A stretch of DNA of 64,000 bases, from positions 4,542-68,541 of the forward strand of contig JABWCP010000015.1 in assembly GCA_013360215.1 (NCBI GenBank), read 5' to 3'. This stretch comes from a bacterium (lineage in GTDB: Bacteria; CLD3; SB21). Shown one piece after another: positions 12,594 through 50,859 of this stretch. The notes under the pieces were generated by a model. The model saw nothing but the letters and a program-made list of their open reading frames with translations, ran no database searches and was not told where the DNA came from. Numbering within the stretch: position 1 is the first letter of the stretch; the number at the start of each line of letters is the position of its first letter. The position numbers and the translations under genes are program-made.

Positions 12594-15500
12594 TTACTTC
12601 AACAACAGTATCCGTCTCGATTTTATGTATCTTCGACCTGAAATTTTTCCAATGGCTTCCATACGTATAATATATATTCCTGACGCTTTCCCCTCAGCCT
12701 TCCAATCAATTTCAAAATACTTTGCCGGAAGCCTCCCTTTGTAAATCCTCTGCACTTTTTGCCCGAGTATATTATAGATATCCAGAATAACCTCGCTTTC
12801 TTCGGGAACTTGAAAACGAAGTATAGTGTTCGGGTTAAATGGATTAGGATAGTTCTGAAAGAGTTCAAAGCTTTTAGGTAATTCTTCAAAAGTTTGATTT
12901 GAAAAACGCTTAGTCGTGTGAAAATAAAAAGTATCAATAGAAGAAACCGTAAACATACCGTCGAACACCTTGACCGTCCAATAATATTTGGAATTTTCTT
13001 GAAATACAATCCCCGAAAAAGTTACGTTTGTATCTTTTATGCCATGAAAAACCGTGTCTAATCCCGGGCCGTAAATTCTAAAATGATATAATAATGTGTC
13101 CTGTGAATCCGGGTCGTTTGCTTTACTCCATGTAAATGTTCTCATTAGTGGTGTTTTGAATAAAGTTAAAGTGTCTTGATGAGTAGGATTCTCAAGTGCA
13201 AACGCTGTTGGCGGTCGGAAAGCCCTTCCAACTGTTACCGCCCATTCCACTTCCGAAGAACTGCCATTTCTATCATACGCTTCAGCAATTACCAAATGTT
13301 TGCCAATATCCGATTCACTTGGAACCCCAATAATAACACCGCTTACACTGTCTATAGTCATCCAATCCGGACCATCAAACAACCTGTAACGAAGGATATC
13401 ATTGAATAAAAAACTATCCTTATCAAACGCATATAACTGAAAGCGATATAGTGAATCAACCTTTGCAACTGAATCGGTACTCGACAGAAAAATCGGTGCA
13501 TGATTTACATGAACAATCTTAAGTTCAAATGATTGCTGTATCGTTACAAAACCATCTGTAGCTTCCAATAAAACTGTTGTGTCGCCAACCGAATAGCCAT
13601 CGGGAATGCCTTGGAGAACACCACTAATACTATCCATCGTCAACCAGTGTGGACCTATAACTAAACGATACTTGATCTTATCATTAAATAACAAACTATC
13701 TTGATCGTAGGCATATGCAGTATAATTATAAACCTCGTCTTCCAGTGCAATTGTGTCGGGATTACTAACAAAGACTGGCGGATGGTTCGTATGCAGTACA
13801 TTGATAGAGAAAACTAAGCTATCTCTACCCCCTTTTTGATCGTAGGCTTCAACAACAACATGGTTTTCACCAGCATCATAGGCGTCTGGAATTCCTGTAA
13901 GATAACCGGTCACTGAATCTATTATCAGCCATGAAGGACCATTCAGCATGAAATAGCGCAATTCGTCTCCAAAGAACATGCTGTCAACATCATGCGCGTA
14001 AATCCGTATTACAAATTGAGAATCTTCTTTTGCCGTTTGAACTGGAATACTTCCAAAAATGGGCGCATGATTAGTATGATGAACACGGATTGACTGCGTT
14101 TGCACATTTGTCGCACCTTGCAAATCGGTAACCAACATTGAAAACGATGTATCTCCTACGTTATAAGCTGTTGGAGTCCCATAGACGATCATTGACGCAG
14201 GATCAAATGTCATCCAACTAGGTTTGAAAAGCAATTCCAGTATAGTTGTATCGCCATAAACACTATCCGAATCAGCTACAGTTATTTTGCATTGATACAG
14301 TGAGTCTTCATAAAGATTGGAATCTGGTACAGCGCCAAAAAATGGAGTTCTATTTGACGGAAAAGTCGGATTTAATTTTATATGATAAACCGTATCAAGT
14401 TTTGAGCTTGTCACTCTGAATTCAATTGATGTGTCACGCCATAATTTGGCATAACCGGTTATCGCACTATCGGTAAAACTCATAGTTTTTGGAAATGAGA
14501 TTGGACTAATTTTTACCGAATCTAGATATTCAAATTGTCTGTATCCCTGTTGAGAACCCCAACGATCAATCAAAGTAATAGGCCTCAACTGAATTTTTAT
14601 TGAATCAGAGTAATCGAAACTGATTTCATTGTTAAATAGAACACCTACATTCTCTAAGCCGATAAGATCACTTGGTCCACTTTTATTTCCATTATCATCC
14701 ACAGATATGACACGATAAAATGAAAAAGATAATTTTTTTAAATAATCGCTTATAGTAAATCGGTTTGTATCCGTTGAATCAATAAGCGTTTGATCAGAAA
14801 CCGAAAAACCTCTGATGTTACTGCCGTATATATAATACTTCGTTGGGAGGCTCCCGCTGGAGTTGATATCCCATAATATATTAATGCCGTTTGTTGAAGC
14901 TGCCAAGCGCAAATTCTTAACTACATCAGGTATTTGTACCTGAAATCTCCAAGCAGGACTCCAATCACTATAAACTCCGTCTTTTGAACGTGTCGCCACT
15001 CTCCAATAATAAGTCGTATTGGGCGATAATAGGCCCTCATGAGGAACTTCAAACTGATTAGTGGTACCATGAACGTTATATTGACTTGTCATTTGGTTAT
15101 AGTGTGAAGAGACAGGGAACCGAAACAATGAGTCTTCACTGACCTGAATATGAAAATCCGATATCTCAAATAAATTCATCCCGGAAGGCAGACCGAACTG
15201 AAACAGAAACTTTGATGAATTAGTAATCCCACCGTCTAAAGGAAAAATCGGTGAATCAATTATTGGTGGCACCTCAATGGAATCAATAGAAAAAAAGGAG
15301 TGCTCATAAACTAAACCGTTAAAGGCTTTATTATCATCGTTACTTATCCGAACAGTATTAATACCCGCGTTCAATCTAGGCAAGGAGGCGGGGTTCAGTT
15401 GAAAAACTGAACTTAAAGATAAGCTATCAATTATTAGACCTTTATCCAAAACTGAATTCCATTCGAGGTGAATAAAATACTTATTTGTAATAGGGGTCCC

Positions 15501-16892
15501 AACAGGAGATATGAAGTTGTAAAGCCTGACAGAATCAGATATCAAACCAAACAAATTGGAATCTAAAGTATAAATCAAAATCGGCGATTGGAGCGTATCT
15601 TTCTGAAAATAAATCGAAAGGCCTGAGTTAGTATCAGATCGTAAAATGTTAAACTTCACATATCCGTCCAATAAAGAATATGGATTTGAATTTTCTATTG
15701 TAAAATAGGATATATTCGAATTTACAGTTGAATATATTTGGACATGATCGGAGGTTGAATCAACCGATAGATTTGATTGACTTACAAAAGCTCGGGGCAA
15801 AGCGTGTTTTGTAAGCGGTTGATAAATCTGATAACCATAACTTATCGTTGGAGGTGGCGCAAAAACATCATTGTTGACATGATAATACTGATAAAGCCCT
15901 GTAAAATCATTCCATGTAAAAATAAATTTTTCACTTGGGCGAATTTTAAGTCCAAACGTATCAATGACATTACGATTATATTCTCGCAGAAGCCCTTGAC
16001 GCGAATAAACGGCAGAAAAACGATCATCCCAGTCAGTTTCCCCAAATAACACTAAACCGTTAGTTCGTTGACGCCTAGCAATATCTTGATCATTCCATAT
16101 TTCTTCTATGGTTGCAAGAGCCTTATTGTCTCTTAGTGTATAAAATACGTTTAGATCGGGATCAAGTGGGATGATCCCTTTATCTGTGTGAATCAGTGTC
16201 ACAGCATGTGAGGGAAGACGTGTATTAGGGTCGTGACCAATCCCACCGGAATTCGTACCCGAATACCCTAAATACTTAAGAATGGAAGAAAGTATCTGTG
16301 CCAACTGGTCACATTGGCCGGCACCATAAACATTGTAAGTCCTTAAGGGGTTTATTAACCAACTTTGCTCATTAGTACTGGTAACCCAATGAAACATTTC
16401 GTTTGTAAGAAATCCCCACACGGCTTTCAATGAATCGTCGCGCGTGCCCAATCCGTGTAAATCTAGCCGTTTAAGCCAATCGCTAAATTGATAGACGAAT
16501 CCCTTACCATTTATTTCGATCTGCGGATTTACAATTGTTTCCGACGATGTGTTTTCTAATGAAAAACTATAGTTATTCTCAATACCTTGTATACCCGACC
16601 TCGTATTATAATAATTAAGCGGGTATCCTTGGTAAAAGAGAGGGTTATGATAAACAATACTATGCGTCGAATAACGCCGAGTATTGGATGCATCTATTTT
16701 CCCGCCGGCGTCTATGACAACAGTCGTGTCGCTTCCTGTTATTGAATGACGAATTAAATGAATCTGACTTTGCAGTAATCTGGTATCAAATAGAAAAGCA
16801 ATGAACAAAGAAAGTTTTAATATTAATAATACTCTAGAACACCGCATATAGACGCCACATAAGAATTTACTTATTTTAAGGTGATTCTTCAT
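12594..16892 (-). CDS. Large secreted protein: transglutaminase-like domain, Ig/cadherin-like repeats, T9SS sorting domain
   Basis: 1432 residues. The N-terminal hydrophobic signal segment is at about 20-40. A transglutaminase-like/cysteine-peptidase fold follows, with a putative triad C194 (GAGQCDQLA), H229 (PSHAVTL) and D244 (PLDPD). A linker and a fibronectin-III-like domain lie at about 655-760. Four tandem Ig/cadherin-like (He_PIG-type) repeats of 90-95 residues follow at about 851-944, 945-1039, 1040-1133 and 1134-1223, each with a D/E-rich strand and a G-x-P-x-x-Y turn and joined by N-H-A/P-P linkers. A type A T9SS sorting domain (about 1339-1432) contains FQNYPNPFNPNT and ends in basic residues. 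It should cross the outer membrane by T9SS and be displayed or released. It lies inside the polysaccharide locus on AT-rich DNA, between the initiating transferase and the glycosyltransferases. The start is the longest frame; an internal ATG at codon 16 is possible. The substrate is unknown. Confidence 0.88.
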   Translation of the reverse strand: MKNHLKISKFLCGVYMRCSRVLLILKLSLFIAFLFDTRLLQSQIHLIRHSITGSDTTVVIDAGGKIDASNTRRYSTHSIVYHNPLFYQGYPLNYYNTRSGIQGIENNYSFSLENTSSETIVNPQIEINGKGFVYQFSDWLKRLDLHGLGTRDDSLKAVWGFLTNEMFHWVTSTNEQSWLINPLRTYNVYGAGQCDQLAQILSSILKYLGYSGTNSGGIGHDPNTRLPSHAVTLIHTDKGIIPLDPDLNVFYTLRDNKALATIEEIWNDQDIARRQRTNGLVLFGETDWDDRFSAVYSRQGLLREYNRNVIDTFGLKIRPSEKFIFTWNDFTGLYQYYHVNNDVFAPPPTISYGYQIYQPLTKHALPRAFVSQSNLSVDSTSDHVQIYSTVNSNISYFTIENSNPYSLLDGYVKFNILRSDTNSGLSIYFQKDTLQSPILIYTLDSNLFGLISDSVRLYNFISPVGTPITNKYFIHLEWNSVLDKGLIIDSLSLSSVFQLNPASLPRLNAGINTVRISNDDNKAFNGLVYEHSFFSIDSIEVPPIIDSPIFPLDGGITNSSKFLFQFGLPSGMNLFEISDFHIQVSEDSLFRFPVSSHYNQMTSQYNVHGTTNQFEVPHEGLLSPNTTYYWRVATRSKDGVYSDWSPAWRFQVQIPDVVKNLRLAASTNGINILWDINSSGSLPTKYYIYGSNIRGFSVSDQTLIDSTDTNRFTISDYLKKLSFSFYRVISVDDNGNKSGPSDLIGLENVGVLFNNEISFDYSDSIKIQLRPITLIDRWGSQQGYRQFEYLDSVKISPISFPKTMSFTDSAITGYAKLWRDTSIEFRVTSSKLDTVYHIKLNPTFPSNRTPFFGAVPDSNLYEDSLYQCKITVADSDSVYGDTTILELLFKPSWMTFDPASMIVYGTPTAYNVGDTSFSMLVTDLQGATNVQTQSIRVHHTNHAPIFGSIPVQTAKEDSQFVIRIYAHDVDSMFFGDELRYFMLNGPSWLIIDSVTGYLTGIPDAYDAGENHVVVEAYDQKGGRDSLVFSINVLHTNHPPVFVSNPDTIALEDEVYNYTAYAYDQDSLLFNDKIKYRLVIGPHWLTMDSISGVLQGIPDGYSVGDTTVLLEATDGFVTIQQSFELKIVHVNHAPIFLSSTDSVAKVDSLYRFQLYAFDKDSFLFNDILRYRLFDGPDWMTIDSVSGVIIGVPSESDIGKHLVIAEAYDRNGSSSEVEWAVTVGRAFRPPTAFALENPTHQDTLTLFKTPLMRTFTWSKANDPDSQDTLLYHFRIYGPGLDTVFHGIKDTNVTFSGIVFQENSKYYWTVKVFDGMFTVSSIDTFYFHTTKRFSNQTFEELPKSFELFQNYPNPFNPNTILRFQVPEESEVILDIYNILGQKVQRIYKGRLPAKYFEIDWKAEGKASGIYIIRMEAIGKISGRRYIKSRRILLLK

Positions 16893-41484: not shown

Positions 41485-42606
41485 TTAACTTGCTTCTGGC
41501 TGGACGTCACGATCATAACTTCGCGGCACTCCTTTTTCGTTTTCCGCGGCATGCGCGCGTTCGTGAATTGCTTTTTTCGCCAATATATCACGTTTGACGT
41601 GCGACCACTGCCGGGGTTTGAGCATCACAAATACAACACTGTACAATACTCGTTTAACCGAAGCCGGCAACTCGATCAAGACAAAAAACATCACTAATGC
41701 CAATCCGTTACACATAGAGATTGTTCGCAAATGACGCCGCGCATTTTCACGCAAAAGACGGATCTGGCGGGGACTGTCAAAAAACGCAGTATATAGCATG
41801 ATATTTTTTAAATAAAAAAAAAGCCGCCGGGTCCAAAATAAATGTCGGCAAACAGCACGAAAAAATGACGTCCCTAATTCAGGCTTTAAAATCAATGCGA
41901 CGTGCTGCAATGAACGAATCCCTGTTTCCCACAGATACCACCCGGAATATAACGTATTCTCGGTATGGTTGGGCGAATACGAACTGATCAACGGCAACGA
42001 AAGAAACGGTTTGGATAAATTACCGCTTTTCATGGCTAAAAAAGCAATATGCGTTTGCGGCCAATACGACTGTGCGATCAATGCATCATCACCCGGTTTT
42101 AACCCCTGCCGAGCATGTTCGGTGCGAATCGCAAAAACACCGGCATTACCCATATAATAAAAATAGTGCTCGGCGGCCGATTCCAACGTCATAAGGCTTT
42201 CGTGCCCTATGAGTTTCCATTGATCAAACATCACTACAGAAAAATCTTCCCGCGTTGTCAGATGATGCATGATTTCAGGAAGCATATCTTCAGCCAGAAT
42301 ATCGTCATCACCAAATGCCATCCAAAACTGTCCACGGCTTTGATGAAACGTTTGTATCATATTTCGGATGGCACCGATATTTTCCGAATTGCGTACATAA
42401 CGAATCGCTACATTTGTTTGTGCGCTCATCGCCTTTACGACAACACCGGTATCATCCGTAGAACAATTATCCGAAACGATAATTTCGACGGACTGGGTAA
42501 AATCAAATTTTTCGGCTTGATGTATAATACTCTCAAGCAGTGCTTTCAGAAATCCGGAGCGATTCCATGTCGGTACACCGATAGAGAGAATTATATTATT
42601 TTTCAT
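41485..42606 (-). CDS. Glycosyltransferase family 2
   Basis: Inverting GT-A transferase. IILSIGVPTWNRSGFLKALL opens the nucleotide-binding domain, SVEIIVSDNCSTDDT carries the first aspartates, and WMAFGDDDILAEDML provides the DxD metal motif. The frame extends to 42639, but the ATG at 42606 overlaps the flippase stop as TAATG and has AAGGA 11 bases upstream, giving 373 residues. The C-terminal part has a hydrophobic segment (ALVMFFVLIELPASV). Donor unknown. Confidence 0.9.
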   Translation of the reverse strand: MKNNIILSIGVPTWNRSGFLKALLESIIHQAEKFDFTQSVEIIVSDNCSTDDTGVVVKAMSAQTNVAIRYVRNSENIGAIRNMIQTFHQSRGQFWMAFGDDDILAEDMLPEIMHHLTTREDFSVVMFDQWKLIGHESLMTLESAAEHYFYYMGNAGVFAIRTEHARQGLKPGDDALIAQSYWPQTHIAFLAMKSGNLSKPFLSLPLISSYSPNHTENTLYSGWYLWETGIRSLQHVALILKPELGTSFFRAVCRHLFWTRRLFFYLKNIMLYTAFFDSPRQIRLLRENARRHLRTISMCNGLALVMFFVLIELPASVKRVLYSVVFVMLKPRQWSHVKRDILAKKAIHERAHAAENEKGVPRSYDRDVQPEAS

Positions 42607-43916
42607 TATGCACGTATCCTTACCGAACGAACAACCCAAATCAAAAAAACAATCAACATCATCGCTTCACCGATGCTGTATAAGATTACGGCGGTATAAG
42701 CCGAGCCGGAGGTCACACCGATACCGATCATGGCCGCACGTATCGCAAAACTTAGAAGTGAAATAACAAAATGCGTACGCTGCTTGCGAATCACCGACGA
42801 AATCATGCTTACGGGTGACGCGACAAGGTTTACTGCAATCGCTATCACAAGGTACCGGGCGTATTCGCCGGCATCCCTCCACGCGGCACCAAAAATCCAT
42901 TCGAATAACCAAGGACCGGCGGTCACAATGATAATCAAAAACGGGAGCGAAAAAAAGGACAGAAACTTAATGTTATTGATCACAAACGAACGCAAAAGTG
43001 CCGCATCCTCACTTAGTTTGGCTGACATTTCATAAAAAACTTGTGCCACACCTTGTCCAATCACCGTACTGGGCAAACGAAGCACATTGGTTGCCAACGC
43101 AAAACAGGCCGCATCATGAGGACTGAACGATGCCGTGAATATCAATAAAGGTAATGACGCCGTCAGTTGATCAAGAAACGTCATCAGCAAACCATACGTC
43201 GGAAACTGTTTGAATCGTTTTAGCAAATTTCGAATTTCCATCCGATCAATAGCAAGATGACGTATAGGCTTTCCTTCGTGCCGCAATCCAAAAAAAATCG
43301 TGATGTATAATGTGATGGCCGCCGATATATGCCCCAATACCAAACCCGTGATCGTCGAACCTTGCCACGAATACATTGACAGCATGACAATAAACGCCAA
43401 CAGCGGCGGCAAAGCTCGCGAGAAACTCAATACCTTATACGCTGCATGACGATTGGCCCAGCTCGCGAGAAGGATATTACCCGCGCCTAAAACAATCCAC
43501 ACCGGCAACCAAAAATATAACGGCCCGCCTTTGGGAAAAAACCCCAAATCCAACGCCAAACCAAAAAACACCAGCGCACTGATAGCGATCACTATCGCGA
43601 AACCCAAAATCAGTTGCCCACAAAATTGAATGATCTTTGCAGCCTGTTCATCGGAGTCCGCCAAGACGATTGCCGAGTCCATACGGAGCATGATCGTGGA
43701 AGACGCAATCATCACCATAGCATTGAGTGTTGCGGCGATCCCGTAATCCGCTGAATCATAAAGCCGTGTTACGATTGGCAATAAAAGAACAGCGATTGCC
43801 TGGCCGATGATCGTTCCAATAGACAATCGGGACACATTTTTGAGGTAACCACTTTGTTTAATGCGCTCCGTCAATTGGCGCAGCGTCATAGGAATGGATG
43901 ATGGAGGAGCGGACAT
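42606..43916 (-). CDS. Wzx-like oligosaccharide flippase (second copy)
   Basis: 436-residue integral membrane protein with about 12 helices and the polysaccharide-biosynthesis/flippase N-terminus LSIGTIIGQAIAVLLLPIVTRLYDSADYGIAATLNAM. The open frame reaches 44066 but would overlap the transketolase gene by 140 bases. The ATG at 43916 (MSAPPSSIPM) lies 10 bases after that gene's stop. It moves a lipid-linked oligosaccharide across the inner membrane. It belongs to a different branch (Wzx/RfbX-like) from the MurJ-like flippase at 30367. Confidence 0.9.
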   Translation of the reverse strand: MSAPPSSIPMTLRQLTERIKQSGYLKNVSRLSIGTIIGQAIAVLLLPIVTRLYDSADYGIAATLNAMVMIASSTIMLRMDSAIVLADSDEQAAKIIQFCGQLILGFAIVIAISALVFFGLALDLGFFPKGGPLYFWLPVWIVLGAGNILLASWANRHAAYKVLSFSRALPPLLAFIVMLSMYSWQGSTITGLVLGHISAAITLYITIFFGLRHEGKPIRHLAIDRMEIRNLLKRFKQFPTYGLLMTFLDQLTASLPLLIFTASFSPHDAACFALATNVLRLPSTVIGQGVAQVFYEMSAKLSEDAALLRSFVINNIKFLSFFSLPFLIIIVTAGPWLFEWIFGAAWRDAGEYARYLVIAIAVNLVASPVSMISSVIRKQRTHFVISLLSFAIRAAMIGIGVTSGSAYTAVILYSIGEAMMLIVFLIWVVRSVRIRA

Positions 43917-43926
43917 GATAATTGCG

Positions 43927-44829
43927 TTATATGTATTCCGACAATACGAGTCCGCAGGATTGTCGGAGATAATCTTGCGATCCGGCGATTTGTATAAACT
44001 GATCGGGAATTGCAATGCGATGTACAAACGGTATCGGCATGGACTTTTTCTTTTCACGGCAATCATGCAAAGCTTCGAGTACGGCCGAACCTAAACCGGC
44101 ACTACGCTGATGTTCTTCGAGCGTTATGATTCGTTCGTACGAGTGTGCCAACAGCTCAATAGTCGTGTTGTCAATGGGTTTGATATACGGCACACTATAC
44201 AAACCCCAAAGCAAATTATTATGACGAATAAAATCCGACGCGTAACGAAGCATGGCACCTGTTGTTAACACGACTGTATTTTTTCCGTGGCAAACAGGAA
44301 TCATTTTACCGGCTGCGAATACGATATTTCCGGGATGTACAGCCGGTTCGCCGGCTTTTCCAAGTCGAATATACATCGGTGCATCGGTTTGAACGGCATG
44401 GGTCGTGATGAGGCGGGCTTCCTGAGGATCACCCGGCGCCGTAACAATCATGCCCGGAAGCGTACGTAAAATTCCTAAATCTTCCGTTCCATGATGTGAA
44501 GCCCCAAGCGCACCGTATGCAAATCCGCCACCGACCGATACGATTTTTACGCCAAGCGCATGGTAACAAATATCGTAGCGTATCTGCTCCAAGCATCGCA
44601 ACGTGGGAAAATTACCAATCGAATAAATGAACGGAATATATCCTTCTTTGGCCAAACCTGCGGCAATACCGGCCATATTTTGTTCGGCCACACCGATATT
44701 GAGAAACCGATCAGGAAACGACTCGGCAAACGGCTCAACCACCGAATAGCCAAGATCACCTACCAGCAAAAAGACGCGCTCATCACGTTTTGCTTCGCTC
44801 ATCAGTTGCTGAATAAAGGCCGTACGCAT
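43927..44829 (-). CDS. Split transketolase, C-terminal (pyrimidine-binding) subunit
   Basis: 300 residues covering the central and C-terminal transketolase domains. NIGVAEQNMAGIAAGLA contains E49, the glutamate that activates the thiamine-diphosphate aminopyrimidine ring. HHGTEDLGILRTLPG and APGDPQEA are conserved in the family. It starts as TAATG from the N-terminal subunit, so the two form one functional unit. The location inside a CDP-sugar operon, not a pentose-phosphate operon, argues for a dedicated sugar-branching role rather than central metabolism. That is inference. Confidence 0.9.
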   Translation of the reverse strand: MRTAFIQQLMSEAKRDERVFLLVGDLGYSVVEPFAESFPDRFLNIGVAEQNMAGIAAGLAKEGYIPFIYSIGNFPTLRCLEQIRYDICYHALGVKIVSVGGGFAYGALGASHHGTEDLGILRTLPGMIVTAPGDPQEARLITTHAVQTDAPMYIRLGKAGEPAVHPGNIVFAAGKMIPVCHGKNTVVLTTGAMLRYASDFIRHNNLLWGLYSVPYIKPIDNTTIELLAHSYERIITLEEHQRSAGLGSAVLEALHDCREKKKSMPIPFVHRIAIPDQFIQIAGSQDYLRQSCGLVLSEYI

Positions 44830-45635
44830 TACGAATGCTCCAGTTGTTCCAGCGCATTACGGAATTGTTCAGCGTCAGGTGTACGATAGTGCCAAAGCAA
44901 TTTTTCTTCCATAAAATCAACACCCTTGCCTTTGACTGTCTCAGCAATAATGATATGCGGCTTATCATCTGTTTTTTTCGTTATCGCCGCCGATAACGCA
45001 GCATGATCATGACCATCCGTTACGGTCACATACCATCCAAAGGATTTGAACTTTTCCGACAAAGGCCCCAAGTCAAGTACTTCATTCACATGACCAAGGC
45101 TTTGTATTTTATTATGATCTACGATCACCACCATGTTATTCAGATGATGGTGCGGTGCAAACAGCAACGCTTCCCAATTGGATCCTTCATCCAACTCTCC
45201 GTCGCTAAGGAGCGCAAAAATACGCCACGCTTGCCCGCGTCGTTTGGCAGCCAACGCCAGCCCGCAGCCAAACGATAACGCGTGTCCCAAACTCCCCGTG
45301 GACAATTCTACGCCCGGGATGTGGTGATTGGCATGCGAAGTAAAAAAACTTCCATTTTGCGCAAAGGAAGTAAGTTGTGACATGTCAAAAAAACCGCGCA
45401 ACGCAAGCGCTGCATATAAAGCAGAGCACGCGTGCCCTTTACTGAGAAGAAAACGATCCCGGTCAGGCCACCGCGGGTTTTTGGGATTGACATTCATCAC
45501 GCCGCCGTATAAAACAGCTAAAATATCCGCCATAGAAAAAGCGCCGCCAAGGTGCGACGAATTCGAAGCATGAACCATTTTTAACGCTTCAATCCGAATC
45601 GCTTTGCTGAATGCTTTTACTTCATCCGTGGTCAC
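44829..45635 (-). CDS. Split transketolase, N-terminal (diphosphate-binding) subunit
   Basis: 268 residues from a GTG at 45635 that forms a GTGA overlap with the FkbM stop; a TTG 4 codons upstream is an alternative. HASNSSHLGGAFSMADILA and SKGHACSALYAAL match transketolase N-termini. The thiamine-diphosphate motif reads SDGELDEGSNWEA near residue 145, in place of the usual GDGE, followed by VVIVDHNKIQS. Only the first glycine of the motif is changed, so cofactor binding is likely kept. Immediately followed by the C-terminal subunit. Confidence 0.9.
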   Translation of the reverse strand: MTTDEVKAFSKAIRIEALKMVHASNSSHLGGAFSMADILAVLYGGVMNVNPKNPRWPDRDRFLLSKGHACSALYAALALRGFFDMSQLTSFAQNGSFFTSHANHHIPGVELSTGSLGHALSFGCGLALAAKRRGQAWRIFALLSDGELDEGSNWEALLFAPHHHLNNMVVIVDHNKIQSLGHVNEVLDLGPLSEKFKSFGWYVTVTDGHDHAALSAAITKKTDDKPHIIIAETVKGKGVDFMEEKLLWHYRTPDAEQFRNALEQLEHS

Positions 45636-46558
45636 GATTTCACCCAAGTCTTGATTTTATTGGCGTGCCGTTCACGATGCAGAAAAATAAAATTGGTTTC
45701 AACGGTCGTTTCGTCTACGACGGTTACCGGTGCGAGATAATCATTTTGAATTAAAAAACAATAGTATCCCATTTCCTTAAAAAAAGTAATGATGTCATTA
45801 GGATGATAATTGTACTTAGCCGCCCACTTACGCAACATTTCCGTACATACGATCGGCTTATGGGTTTGCAGCGTGTTTTTCCCTCCGCGATAGACCATCA
45901 ATTCCGCGCCTTCCACATCGCATTTGATAAAGTCCGGCTTCGCACCATACTGTTCACAAAAATTATCCATCGTTTCCAGCGCGCATTCCGTTTCGTGCGC
46001 ATTAGCGGCTTCGGTTATATTAACCGCCGATGCACTAGTCGAAAGTTCCGGGTCGACAAAAAACGTAAGTTTTCCTGTGCGATCGGATAAGCCGAGATTA
46101 TGCGGCTTAATACGCATGGCTGCATTTAACTGAATATTATTTTCCAGCTCCCGATACGTTCCGGGTACCGGCTCAAACGCCCAAACATGTAAATCGGAAA
46201 CGACCTTAGAAAAATTTAGTGAATACCAGCCAATATTAGCGCCAATGTCAAAAACCGACATACCCGGTTCCAACAAACGACACATCATTGAAAAATACTC
46301 TGGTTCATACTGCGCAAAATTAAGAATTTCAAACGGCGCACTGCGTTTGTCGGCTTTTGGGGTTAACCAACGAAGTCCGTGCGGACGCGTAGTCCATACT
46401 ATACCATGCGACGTGATCGTGATATTTTCGATATCCGTGTGCCGGAGTAAATCCGTGTATTCGAAAAGCTGATTATGTTTCTCATACATTGCTTGTATGT
46501 ATTCCGATTTTTTAATCGCACCGGAACGGTATTGATTTTGAATGTCTGTAATTTTCAT
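45632..46558 (-). CDS. FkbM-family SAM-dependent methyltransferase
   Basis: 308 residues. MSVFDIGANIGWYSLNFSK is the SAM-binding motif I, VWAFEPVPGTYRELENNI motif II, and PDFIKCDVEGAELMVYRGG the FkbM hallmark. Probably O-methylates a hydroxyl of the sugar made by this operon. ATGA overlap with the SDR upstream and GTGA overlap with the transketolase downstream show tight coupling. Confidence 0.92.
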   Translation of the reverse strand: MKITDIQNQYRSGAIKKSEYIQAMYEKHNQLFEYTDLLRHTDIENITITSHGIVWTTRPHGLRWLTPKADKRSAPFEILNFAQYEPEYFSMMCRLLEPGMSVFDIGANIGWYSLNFSKVVSDLHVWAFEPVPGTYRELENNIQLNAAMRIKPHNLGLSDRTGKLTFFVDPELSTSASAVNITEAANAHETECALETMDNFCEQYGAKPDFIKCDVEGAELMVYRGGKNTLQTHKPIVCTEMLRKWAAKYNYHPNDIITFFKEMGYYCFLIQNDYLAPVTVVDETTVETNFIFLHRERHANKIKTWVKS

Positions 46559-47598
46559 GTATAGGACTTAATCGTTCGTGTAAAACCCTCTTCGACAGTT
46601 GTCGTCGGTTGCCAACCTAAGCTCTTTATTTTGGTAATATCCGGAACACTGCGTTGTACGGCGCTGGGAATATAGCCATTTTGCGGCGGGATATCCAAAA
46701 TCACTGATAATTTTTTTTCCGGAAACAGTGTTACTAATTTTTCCGCCAATCCTCGAATACTGATTTCACATTCAGGGTTACCTACATTATAAGCTTCGGT
46801 CGTTTTTCCGTGGAGCATCACCGTAAAAAAACCGATAACCGCATCGCGAAGATAACAAAAGGAGCGCGTTGCAGCACCGCTACTGCGAAGTACAATATTA
46901 TTTCCATTAACAATATCTGCAACCAAATCCGCAAAAATACGCCCGTCATCCAGCGCCATGCCGGGCCCATAGGTGTGAAACGGTCGAACGATCACCGTGG
47001 GAAGACCATACTGGTGAGACCATGCAACGCACATTGTTTCGCCAAGCCTTTTGCTTTCCGCATAACATGAACGCAGGGCCATGCTATCCAAACAACCAAG
47101 CTGCATCTCATTGGTCGGTATTTGGCGCGCTTCCAGTTGACCATATACTTCGCTGCTGCTAAAGTACAAAAATCGTTCGCTTTGGGATTGACGCGCTACC
47201 TCAAGCATGTTTTGCGTGCCGGTCGTATTGGCCGTCAAAGTACCCACCGGATCTATACCATAATATTTTGGCGAGGCTTGGCTTGCGGCATGTACTACAA
47301 AATGAACCGGCGTATCAGAGCGAAATACCAACCGTGTTACATCGGCTACGTGTAACTTAAAATCGTTACGTCCGGCATGATGTGCAAACCTCTGACGTGC
47401 ACGTTCTTCAGACCGTACAATCCCGATCACATGAATGTTCATACCCAAATGATCATTGAGCCCTAATAACGTTTCTACCATGTACGCCGGTAGAAAACCA
47501 TTGGCCCCACTGATAAGAACCGTTTTTCCACGGAGTACATCCCAAGGCAGCGGCGCAGAAATAATATGCGCGATGTCTTCGCGTATTATTGAATGCAT
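46555..47598 (-). CDS. NAD-dependent epimerase/dehydratase (SDR) of the CDP-sugar operon
   Basis: 347 residues from the ATG at 47598, which forms TGATG with the RfbH stop; the open frame runs 31 codons further inside RfbH. The NAD loop reads SGANGFLPAY, with Pro where most SDRs have Gly. SSSEVYGQ and CYAESKRLGE supply the catalytic serine, tyrosine and lysine. Overall it is closest to UDP-glucuronate decarboxylase/4,6-dehydratase-like SDRs. Its place right after RfbH suggests it reduces or epimerises the 4-keto group of the CDP sugar, before or after the transketolase step. No specific reaction can be assigned. Confidence 0.87.
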   Translation of the reverse strand: MHSIIREDIAHIISAPLPWDVLRGKTVLISGANGFLPAYMVETLLGLNDHLGMNIHVIGIVRSEERARQRFAHHAGRNDFKLHVADVTRLVFRSDTPVHFVVHAASQASPKYYGIDPVGTLTANTTGTQNMLEVARQSQSERFLYFSSSEVYGQLEARQIPTNEMQLGCLDSMALRSCYAESKRLGETMCVAWSHQYGLPTVIVRPFHTYGPGMALDDGRIFADLVADIVNGNNIVLRSSGAATRSFCYLRDAVIGFFTVMLHGKTTEAYNVGNPECEISIRGLAEKLVTLFPEKKLSVILDIPPQNGYIPSAVQRSVPDITKIKSLGWQPTTTVEEGFTRTIKSYT

Positions 47599-48953
47599 CA
47601 CGAAGCCGTATCTTGTCGGAGAAATGAACGGATAGCGTCGATCATATAATCTAACATCGGCGTCGTTAAACCAGGATACACCCCCAACCAAAACCCGTTA
47701 TTCATGATATGATCCGTATTGGTCAATTCACCTACAACGCGGTAAGAACCCGGCTGTTCTCGGAAAGCATCAAAAAAAGGTTGGCGTATAAGATTGCCGC
47801 CAAACAACATGCGTGTTTGAATTTTTTTGTTTTCAAGATAGCGGATCAACTCGGGACGAGAAATACCGCTTTCGCTGCGAAGACTGATGAGAAAACCAAA
47901 CCAACTCGGATTGGCATTGGGTGTGGCTTCAGGTAAAATAAAAATATCCGAGAACTCCGCTAAACCGTTTTTCAGATAATTCCAATTTGCACGTCGTCTA
48001 GCGGCAAAATCCTCAAGTCTGTCTAATTGCACGCAACCTATTGCGGCTTGAATATCCGTAGCTTTAAGATTGTAACCTAGATGACGGTACGTGTATTTAT
48101 GATCATAACCACACGGCAACGTTCCGAGTTCCCAATCAAACCGTTTACCACACGTATTATCTTTTCCGGAATCGCACCAGCAGTCACGACCCCAATCACG
48201 AAACGATTCAATACTGCGCTTGAGAATACTTTTATGGGTGTACACGGCACCGCCTTCGCCCATCGTAATATGGTGCGGCGGATAAAAGCTACTTGTCGCG
48301 ACATCACCGAATGTTCCTGTCCACCGGCCCCGATATTCCGAACCCAGCGCATCGCAATTATCTTCTACGAGCCAGAGATTATATTTTTTACAAAACGTCG
48401 TCACGGCATCCAGATCAAAAGGATTGCCGAGCGTATGAGCGATCATGACTGCTTTCGTTTTTGGGCTGTACGCCGCTTCCAATGCCCGCGTATCGATATT
48501 CGCTGTTTCGGTATGCACATCCAGAAAAACAGGTACGGCGCCAAACTGCAACATCGGAGCAACCGTCGTCGGAAAACCGGCCGCTACGGTTATAACTTCG
48601 TCGCCTTTACGAATCCGACGATCTTCCAGTAACGGAGAAGTCAGACTCATAAACGCCAAAAGGTTGGCCGACGAACCGGAGTTACACAACATGGCGTGCT
48701 TCACGCCGAGTTTTTTGGCAAGCTTGCTTTCAAACTCCTTTGAAAAATGTCCGGATGTAAGCCAAAACTCAAGACTTGCATCTACGGCATGTTGCATTTC
48801 TTTTTCATCAAACACACGTCCCGCGTACGATATAGCGGATTGACCGGGCACAAATTCCTTTTTTTGACCGTGCGTCAAACGGTAATACTCGGCCGTCTTT
48901 TCTAAAATTTCGAGCCGAAGCTTTTCCGCCGCGGCTTTTACGTTTTGATCCAT
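47598..48953 (-). CDS. rfbH: CDP-4-dehydro-6-deoxyglucose 3-dehydrase (E1, RfbH/DdhC)
   Basis: PMP-dependent dehydrase of 451 residues that removes the C3 hydroxyl of CDP-4-keto-6-deoxyglucose. Unlike aminotransferases of the same fold it has histidine (H227 in [14 protein letters not shown]) in place of the PLP lysine. The iron-sulfur ligands match the E1 spacing exactly: C200-x57-C258-x1-C260-x7-C268. Both features are diagnostic for the radical deoxygenation enzyme. Its usual reductase partner E3 (RfbI/DdhD/AscD) is not in the window. RfbG is 56 bases upstream, and the SDR starts on its stop codon. Confidence 0.95.
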
Positions 48954-49009
48954 GTCGTTTATTTTATTCTCGTTTTCGGAGTCGCGCTCAAAGTTAAAAA
49001 ATCAAATCT

Positions 49010-50101
49010 TCAGATCGCGTGGAATGACAAGCTTAGATATTCATCAAGTTGTTTTTTACGTGCATCCCAAAGCGAACCAGTGGATGCATCGTCGTGATAG
49101 CCTTGGGCTGTCAATGCGATAGTTTGTTCCAGTGATAAAGCCGGTTTCCACGACAATTGTGAAACCGCCTTGGAAATATCTAAACGCAACATGTAGGCTT
49201 CGTGTTCATTTTGTTTTACCGCAGCGGTTTCAAATCGTCCGAAACCCGTTTTGGAAATCAGCGCGAGGATAAGTTCCTGTACCGAGCACGCATGATGCAT
49301 TGCCGGTCCAAAATTCCATCCGCCGGAGTATGTTTTACCGTGGAGCAATAATTTCTCCCCCAACGTAAGATAGCCGCGCAACGGCTCAAGAACGAATTGC
49401 CACGGACGAACTGCGTTGGGGTTTCGCAGTATCAGTGTTTGATTTTTTTGCGCCGCCCTGAAAAAATCAGGAACGATGCGATTCTCGGCCCAATCCCCTC
49501 CGCCGATTACGTTGCCGGCACGCGCACTAGCGACGGTGCACGTTCCTTCGTTCGAAAAAAAAGATCGCGTATATGAAGCCGTGATCAGTTCCGATGCACC
49601 TTTGGAAGCGCTATAAGGGTCGACACCTCCCATGGGGTCGTTTTCACGATAACCCCACACCCACTCGTTGTTTTGATAACACTTATCGCTGGTTACATTG
49701 ATTGCTGCACGAACGGATGGTGTTGCGCGCACCGCTTCAAAAAAACGAACCGTGCCCACCACGTTGGTTTCAAATGTCTCTGCAGGATCGCGATAACTGT
49801 CCAGTACCAACGCTTGGGCGGCAAGATGAAATGCGATATCGGGTCGAACTTCTTTAACATAATCCACCAATGCGTGCGGATCGCGAATATCACCATCGCG
49901 GTGATGTATTTTATTTTGTAAATCACATCGTACGAAATTATCGTTATTGGTTTTCGGAGCGAGAGCAAACCCGTAAACCTCGGCGCCAAGGGTATGCAAC
50001 CAAATACTGAGCCAAGATCCTTTGAAACCGGTATCGCCTGTAACCAAAACGCGTTTACCGCGATAGATGTCGGAAAAATTGTTTTTCACCAGGTCACCCA
50101 T
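49010..50101 (-). CDS. rfbG: CDP-glucose 4,6-dehydratase
   Basis: Converts CDP-glucose to CDP-4-keto-6-deoxyglucose using bound NAD. 363 residues. The N-terminal VLVTGDTGFKGSWLSIWL is diagnostic of RfbG, NVTSDKCYQN carries the catalytic threonine-aspartate-lysine, and DPYSASKGASE the Tyr-x3-Lys. RAGNVIGGGDWAENRIVPD is also family-specific. The start overlaps the rfbF stop by 16 bases. Part of the chain rfbF-rfbG-rfbH. Confidence 0.97.
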   Translation of the reverse strand: MGDLVKNNFSDIYRGKRVLVTGDTGFKGSWLSIWLHTLGAEVYGFALAPKTNNDNFVRCDLQNKIHHRDGDIRDPHALVDYVKEVRPDIAFHLAAQALVLDSYRDPAETFETNVVGTVRFFEAVRATPSVRAAINVTSDKCYQNNEWVWGYRENDPMGGVDPYSASKGASELITASYTRSFFSNEGTCTVASARAGNVIGGGDWAENRIVPDFFRAAQKNQTLILRNPNAVRPWQFVLEPLRGYLTLGEKLLLHGKTYSGGWNFGPAMHHACSVQELILALISKTGFGRFETAAVKQNEHEAYMLRLDISKAVSQLSWKPALSLEQTIALTAQGYHDDASTGSLWDARKKQLDEYLSLSFHAI

Positions 50102-50859
50102 GGTGCGCGTTTTTCACGTAAAAGTTCGTCGAGCATATTCTTATCACGCAATGTATCCATCGGCTGCCAAAACCTGTCATGTTTGAATGCAACAAGCGAT
50201 TGGGAGCGGGCTAAGGTTTCTAACGGTTCACGTTCCAATACTGTTTGATCGTCTTTGAGTAATTGCAAAACACTGTTTTCAAAAATAAAAAAACCGGCAT
50301 TCACCCAAGCTCCGTCGCCTTTGGGTTTTTCCTGAAAACTCTGCACCATTCCGGATGCATCCATAGCCATGGCGCCAAATCTCCCGCTCGGCTGTATCGC
50401 CGTCACTGTCGCCGGTTTGCCATGCGCCATATGGAATGACAGAAGTTTACGGATATCCACATCGGCCACTCCGTCGCCGTAAGTCAGAAAAAAACGCTCG
50501 CCATCAAGATAGGAAGCAACGCGTCGGATGCGTCCGCCGGTCATGGTATCCAGCCCGGTATCCACCAACGTCACACGCCACGGTTCTGCCGTATGTGTGT
50601 GAATGACAGGCGCATTGTGCGCACGAAAATCAAACGTGACATCCGATTCGTGTAAAAAATAATTGGCAAAATATTCTTTGATCACATAGCCCTTATAGCC
50701 AAGACATATCACAAAATCATTGTACCCGTAACTGGAGTAGATTTTCATGATGTGCCATAAAATCGGTTTACCTCCGATTTCAATCATCGGTTTCGGTTTT
50801 AAGTGCGACTCTTCACTGATGCGCGTACCGTAACCGCCGGCTAAAATGACAACTTTCAT
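50086..50859 (-). CDS. rfbF: Glucose-1-phosphate cytidylyltransferase
   Basis: Makes CDP-glucose from glucose-1-phosphate and CTP, the first step of CDP-dideoxyhexose synthesis. 257 residues. The nucleotidyltransferase signature VVILAGGYGTRISEESHLKP is at the N-terminus, followed by KPMIEIGGKPILWHIMKIYS and FLTYGDGVADVDIRKLL. One base separates it from the WbpE-like gene, so the CDP branch and the UDP-diacetamido branch are cotranscribed. Confidence 0.97.
   Translation of the reverse strand: MKVVILAGGYGTRISEESHLKPKPMIEIGGKPILWHIMKIYSSYGYNDFVICLGYKGYVIKEYFANYFLHESDVTFDFRAHNAPVIHTHTAEPWRVTLVDTGLDTMTGGRIRRVASYLDGERFFLTYGDGVADVDIRKLLSFHMAHGKPATVTAIQPSGRFGAMAMDASGMVQSFQEKPKGDGAWVNAGFFIFENSVLQLLKDDQTVLEREPLETLARSQSLVAFKHDRFWQPMDTLRDKNMLDELLREKRAPWVTW

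Follow-up and report, generated by a model that had tools for sequence, protein, structure and literature searches.

A split transketolase in a CDP-dideoxyhexose operon: a candidate route to branched sugars in bacterial surface polysaccharides

We analyzed a 64,000-nucleotide stretch of a bacterial genome of the CLD3/SB21 lineage (assembly GCA_013360215.1, contig JABWCP010000015.1, positions 4,542 to 68,541; hereafter the window). Between window positions 43927 and 50859, a tight minus-strand operon combines genes for a cytidine diphosphate (CDP)-activated deoxysugar with both halves of a transketolase (TK). In order, these are rfbF, rfbG, rfbH, the genes for an extended short-chain dehydrogenase/reductase (SDR) and an FkbM-family methyltransferase, and those for the N- and C-terminal TK halves (TKN and TKC; Table 1). 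We think it likely that the operon serves to supply a surface polysaccharide with a branched CDP-deoxysugar, formed by ketol transfer to C4 of CDP-3,6-dideoxy-4-hexulose. A sequence-only reading of this DNA had proposed the gene run, and all seven genes are indeed present on the minus strand with family models scoring above their cut-offs. Its description of overlaps and tiny gaps mostly holds: TKN and TKC overlap by one base, and the largest internal gap, between rfbG and rfbH, is 56 bases. The SDR start has to be corrected, as its longest open reading frame (ORF; 46555-47691) begins within rfbH and the usable ATG at 47598 leaves a 1-base overlap with that gene.

The first three genes form the trio of the yersiniose type, each above its NCBIfam equivalog cut-off. 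RfbH, the genome's only copy above the model cut-off, has PPHH at residues 225-228 in place of the lysine that binds pyridoxal phosphate and the iron-sulfur cysteine pattern C200-x57-C258-x1-C260-x7-C268, just as had been claimed for its E1 histidine and four cysteines. By family membership, the product of the trio is predicted to be CDP-3,6-dideoxy-4-hexulose. At the other end of the operon, two adjacent ORFs carry PF00456 and PF02779 plus PF02780, respectively, all above cut-off, which identifies them as a split TK; the nearest solved structures are likewise from a split TK (6yak for TKN and 6yaj for TKC). A pyruvate dehydrogenase (PDH)- or AviB-like identity was considered and rejected, as TK models outscore the PDH E1 models for both chains (248.5 bits versus 28 for E1 alpha in TKN; 140.4 versus 38.1 for E1 beta in TKC).

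The same combination recurs in other genomes. One of the same family (G004, locus L046) has the entire cassette in identical order followed by a GT2 gene, its seven operon genes being 47-76% identical to those of the window. G013 (L048), which belongs to another phylum-level group, has the order rfbF-rfbG-rfbH-TKN-TKC-SDR; within its small phylum, one CDP-linked case was seen among 77 genomes. Public genomes were scanned with the TKN profile alone, and the loci from that scan are those among the matches listed. They include Janthinobacterium sp. CG3 (L063) and an actinobacterial metagenome-assembled genome (MAG; L069), both with rfbF, rfbG, rfbH, an SDR and the TK, as well as Aceula (L064), a Bacteroidales genome (L065) and an alphaproteobacterial genome (L067), in which a C-methyltransferase (PF08421/PF08484) replaces rfbH next to rfbF-rfbG. 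L064 also departs from the others in that the position of the SDR is filled by an aminotransferase and a formyltransferase. A plasmid search with TKN recovered rfbF-rfbG-SDR-rfbH-TKN-TKC on a plasmid of Methylovirgula sp. HY1; a phage collection yielded nothing beyond weak TK matches (at most 35% identity), located on small contigs or in a bacterial record that had been misfiled. Of 386 genomes surveyed, rfbG was present in 35 and a split TK (E<=1e-70) in 174, the two lying within 10 kb of each other in three genomes among the matches listed (G000, G004 and G013), all of the glycan-type group. As regards the co-occurrence proposed as a check on the sequence-only reading, rfbH and an SDR accompany the split TK, together with rfbF and rfbG, in most clusters, whereas FkbM is limited to the close relative and possibly an acidobacterial locus. 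Since the cassette is kept in a relative and other phyla share its core, the association is not due to chance. Moreover, the loci were gathered by TK similarity, without the rfb genes, and hence the CDP-sugar linkage is not built into the sample.

Trees of concatenated TKN and TKC, with SH-aLRT and UFBoot support, place the nine pairs linked to both rfbF and rfbG in one clade (94.2/99; 96.5/99 after five sequences were added) whose members come from at least five phyla. This CDP-linked clade nests in a larger clade of TKs from glycan clusters (100/100 without L072). Nearby rfbF and rfbG accompany 9/9 members as against 0/76 other split TKs (Fisher p = 2e-12, a descriptive value that ignores relatedness). 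Outside the tight clade, partial versions of the linkage were observed in an Acidobacteria MAG (L068 5597-11766; rfbF, rfbH and a possible FkbM gene), an Omnitrophota MAG (L075 2915-9328; rfbF, a C-methyltransferase, an SDR of the window type and rfbH) and a Lachnospiraceae MAG (L071 9201-16533; rfbF adjoining the TK, with rfbG 4 kb away).

Active-site residues were located by aligning the sequences with the canonical TK of this genome; numbering follows E. coli, and the mapped positions are taken to be equivalent to the motifs of E. coli TktA. The catalytic H26, H66, H100, H261, E411 and H473 and the metal-site D155 and N185 are kept in the window pair, in 9/9 CDP-linked members and in 29/29 of the glycan clade. 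The acceptor side differs from that of a pentose-phosphate enzyme: the window pair has A, G, L and K at positions 91, 461, 469 and 520. R91, H461 and D469 are absent from 9/9 CDP-linked members, and from 29/29 members of the glycan clade overall, and R91, H461, D469 and R520 are all retained in 61/76 generic split TKs. Position 520 has lysine instead of arginine in 9/9 CDP-linked members; the same holds for 6/20 TKs of the sister group and for 4/76 of the remaining split TKs. In E. coli TK, D469 belongs to a co-evolved network, in which it touches H26 and R91 and also interacts with H461 and R520 (PMC3657141), and evolved S385/D469/R520 variants have shifted from phosphorylated to other aldehyde acceptors (PMC5073344). 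Together, these substitutions are evidence that the acceptor has changed.

These data bear directly on the proposal that the pair is an ordinary pentose-phosphate TK, or a spare copy of one, which landed in a polysaccharide cluster by chance. That split TKs are common in the surveyed genomes and that the catalytic residues are intact would agree with it. However, the genome encodes a separate full-length canonical TK (C6:14474; PF00456, 470 bits), the window pair groups with other CDP-linked TKs in a linkage recurring across phyla, and R91, H461 and D469 are lost; we accordingly reject a housekeeping role, and regard this proposal as very improbable. The sequence-only reading would have been contradicted by a pair placed within ordinary TKs in a genome with no other TK gene; instead, the pair falls in a distinct clade and, because the genome has the C6:14474 TK as well as a second split pair, it is not the only TK available. 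This second pair (C1:317948-319700 in the genome, G000; locus L014 9934-11813; halves at C1:318020 and 318907) has its own divergent acceptor site, with L, I, N and H at positions 91, 461, 469 and 520. It lies in a cluster resembling those for cytidine monophosphate-activated sugars, with nucleotidyltransferase-like, class III aminotransferase-like, SDR, KdsC-like and NeuB-like genes.

Split TKs of the sister groups of the CDP-linked clade have likewise lost R91, H461 and D469. In six glycan clusters without CDP-sugar genes (L047, L049, L144, L145, L147 and L148, respectively G051:C69, G016:C13, G080:C19, G139:C24, G446:C103 and G447:C18), a DegT aminotransferase directly adjoins the pair, and an undecaprenyl-phosphate sugar-transferase-like gene is often nearby. 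A DegT aminotransferase-TKN-TKC arrangement is also found in LysW-linked non-ribosomal peptide synthetase clusters on Streptomyces plasmids (L154, pSALBX2 of Streptomyces sp. CL7; L156, Streptomyces sp. NBC_01006), which resemble vazabitide/azinomycin-type pathways. We considered whether these two TKs belong to the same clade and rejected it, as the tree puts both outside the glycan clade; they keep H461.

The mechanism that we favor would begin with the conversion of glucose-1-phosphate to CDP-3,6-dideoxy-4-hexulose by RfbF, RfbG and RfbH. A hydroxylated ketose would donate a two-carbon ketol unit to the TKN/TKC complex, which would bind thiamine diphosphate (ThDP) between its two chains; the unit would then join the C4 ketone, rather than an aldose phosphate, yielding a 4-C-(hydroxyacetyl)-3,6-dideoxyhexose that bears a tertiary alcohol. 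Because H100 is retained, which distinguishes TK from the pyruvate-using 1-deoxy-D-xylulose-5-phosphate synthase (PMC7661550), such a donor and a hydroxyacetyl branch are likelier than an acetyl branch. We infer the transfer to C4 from linkage, phylogeny and the active-site changes, with the linkage pointing to a CDP-4-ketosugar as the acceptor. Thereafter, the SDR would probably reduce the new branch ketone to a 1,2-dihydroxyethyl group and the FkbM enzyme would probably add an O-methyl group, and the adjoining GT2 and flippase would use the product. The gene swaps between clusters, of rfbH for a C-methyltransferase and of the SDR for an aminotransferase and a formyltransferase, are what would be expected of a TK that uses a CDP-4-keto sugar as its substrate and produces a branch bearing a ketone; the second swap, in L064, fits the branch ketone in particular. 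Among natural products, the branch ketones that arise from related ThDP enzymes are variously reduced, methylated, oxidized or transaminated (PMC12247030).

Several points weigh against this mechanism. First, acceptance of a ketosugar has so far been shown for no TK (PMC12247030). Second, the loss of R91, H461 and D469 extends to the glycan-linked sister group without CDP genes, and therefore marks a changed acceptor and not a CDP sugar specifically. Third, the sampling was limited, the public loci being those among the matches listed. Fourth, H461 and R520 have a further role with the phosphate of the donor, which bears on the identity of the donor. Fifth, the window SDR has a YxxxK and a nucleotide-binding motif and no reductase signature of its own, and it is not an ortholog of most SDRs in the other clusters.

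The sister group also lends some substance to a different scheme, in which the TK product is a branched or chain-extended sugar, either free or phosphorylated, or some other metabolite, and becomes attached to the CDP sugar later, without the TK itself acting on the CDP-ketosugar. As this group occurs in glycan clusters that lack rfbF, rfbG and rfbH and often have a DegT aminotransferase next to the TK, something other than a CDP sugar could have been the acceptor of the common ancestor. Nevertheless, rfbF and rfbG are the only activation genes that accompany all nine members of the clade, and rfbH and the C-methyltransferase, which swap for each other, both leave a 4-keto CDP sugar; we hence regard later joining as unlikely.

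The SDR and FkbM steps are the weakest links of the mechanism that we favor. The closest solved structures of the window SDR are UDP-glucuronate decarboxylases (2b69). It carries an SSSEVYG motif and shares no more than 20-25% identity with the SDR type of L065, L067, L069 and L150, a different subgroup. These features would suit a variant in which the TK branches the CDP sugar while the SDR is an epimerase or acts on another sugar, the branch staying a hydroxyacetyl ketone or being processed elsewhere. Yet, every cluster of the clade has a tailoring gene (an SDR or, in L064, the aminotransferase and formyltransferase), as expected for a new ketone, and the close relative L046 keeps the window SDR at 61% identity. 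We hold this variant, which overlaps in confidence with the favored mechanism, to be a tentative possibility. The reduction claimed by the sequence-only reading accordingly has the recurrence of tailoring genes in its favor and the lack of an obvious reductase against it. For the claimed methylation, the family assignment stands; the FkbM gene is kept at 59% identity in L046 and is otherwise seen only as the possible gene in L068, and is therefore best viewed as an optional decoration.

The operon is embedded in a cluster for a surface polysaccharide. Upstream of the operon lie genes for an oxidoreductase, a hexapeptide acetyltransferase and a DegT aminotransferase, a set which we take to be typical of the 2,3-diamino-uronic acid route, along with homologs of Wza, WecB, WecC and Ugd; downstream are the flippase, the GT2 and an asparagine-synthase-like protein. 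No RNA elements were detected in the window, and a scan of it for promoters and terminators gave counts not above those of shuffled sequence. Further away, the contents of the region 9406-38860 suggest that two polysaccharide clusters lie side by side: it encodes a Wzi-like protein for capsule assembly, several GT1 enzymes, a MurJ-like flippase and a second asparagine-synthase-like protein, and has gmd/fcl-like genes as well as a DegT gene resembling those for perosamine synthase. Amid these polysaccharide genes, 12594-16892 encodes a 1432-aa protein with He_PIG Ig-like domains that is probably a surface protein.

Table 1. Genes of the operon and its immediate downstream neighbors in the window
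Feature	Position	Strand	Evidence
rfbF, glucose-1-phosphate cytidylyltransferase	50086..50859	-	TIGR02623 412.7 bits (cut-off 300)
rfbG, CDP-glucose 4,6-dehydratase	49010..50101	-	TIGR02622 451.9 bits (cut-off 278)
rfbH, CDP-4-keto-6-deoxyglucose-3-dehydrase (E1)	47598..48953	-	NF011936 730.9 bits (cut-off 423)
Extended SDR	46555..47598	-	PF01370 151 bits; start ATG at 47598
FkbM-family methyltransferase	45632..46558	-	TIGR01444 105.1 bits (cut-off 37.7)
TKN, N-terminal half of split TK (ThDP diphosphate-binding domain)	44829..45647	-	PF00456 163.7 bits
TKC, C-terminal half of split TK (pyrimidine and C-terminal domains)	43927..44829	-	PF02779 102 bits, PF02780 41.2 bits
Wzx-type flippase (start estimated)	42606..43916	-	PF13440 65 bits on longest ORF 42606-44066
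GT2 glycosyltransferase, candidate transferase for the branched sugar	41485..42639	-	PF00535; 39% identical GT2 directly after TKC in L046

More generally, we lean towards the view that a horizontally spread clade of split TKs with a rebuilt acceptor pocket constitutes a second natural route, beside YerE, to two-carbon branches on CDP-4-ketosugars in surface glycans. The branching step would be preceded by interchangeable modules for RfbH deoxygenation or C-methylation and followed by others for reduction or for transamination and formylation. Ketone acceptance by TKs is so far a proposal, for which a 2025 review names Streptomycete candidates alone (PMC12247030). The clade offers candidate ketone-accepting TKs with a known pathway context and a ready route to the substrates, the products of RfbF, RfbG and RfbH; some of the enzymes come from named organisms (Janthinobacterium and Methylovirgula), and the residue signature helps to find more. 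If the proposal is true, these would be biocatalysts that form tertiary alcohols using hydroxylated two-carbon donors, and new branched sugars would be predicted in surface polysaccharides. Searches of the literature available to us found nothing relevant on TKs in O-antigen or capsule clusters and no paper on a dihydroxyethyl-branched sugar. Some Gram-negative cases may already have been noticed in the source survey by Krug et al. 2024.

Among known systems, two-subunit ThDP enzymes are likewise implicated in two-carbon branches on deoxysugars in the case of AviB1/AviB2 and Pau11/Pau12. However, these belong to the alpha-ketoacid dehydrogenase superfamily and are not TKs (PMC4753412); their donor is pyruvate, whereas TK models fit the window pair, which carries H100, the histidine characteristic of TKs. 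The parallel drawn to AviB1/AviB2 in the sequence-only reading is therefore with another superfamily, even as the linkage, the CDP-linked clade, the housekeeping TK elsewhere and the acceptor site give good support to the core of that claim, namely a TK pair that uses the product of RfbH. The split TK of Carboxydothermus hydrogenoformans (6yak/6yaj), an active alpha2beta2 enzyme (PMC7661550), is that organism's only TK, and its C chain retains H461, D469 and R520 in our alignment. The AziC5/AziC6 TK of azinomycin biosynthesis extends a non-phosphorylated aldehyde by two carbons before an aminotransferase acts (PMC9570651); this and the LysW-linked split TKs are similar in combining extension with tailoring of the ketone, but the AziC acceptor is a glutamate-derived aldehyde. 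The split TKs of miharamycin and amipurimycin are the only cases for which ketosugar TKs have been proposed; there, a hydroxyacetyl unit would likewise be transferred to a ketosugar (13 candidates, all Streptomycete, none assayed; PMC12247030). Compared by description only, those pathways make nucleoside antibiotics in Streptomyces, while the present clusters are for CDP-sugar polysaccharides in other phyla.

The closest counterpart of the operon as a whole is the yersiniose A pathway, which comprises rfbFGH/ddhABC, YerE and a reductase. There, too, a ThDP enzyme puts a two-carbon unit on C4 of the same CDP-3,6-dideoxy-4-hexulose and the branch ketone is then reduced. However, YerE is an enzyme of the decarboxylase superfamily that uses pyruvate to form an acetyl branch, whereas here a split TK would form the proposed hydroxyacetyl branch. 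As the scanned window proteins include TK domains and no decarboxylase-type ThDP domain such as defines YerE, the operon would work like the yersiniose pathway without being a member of it, with the TK standing in for YerE.

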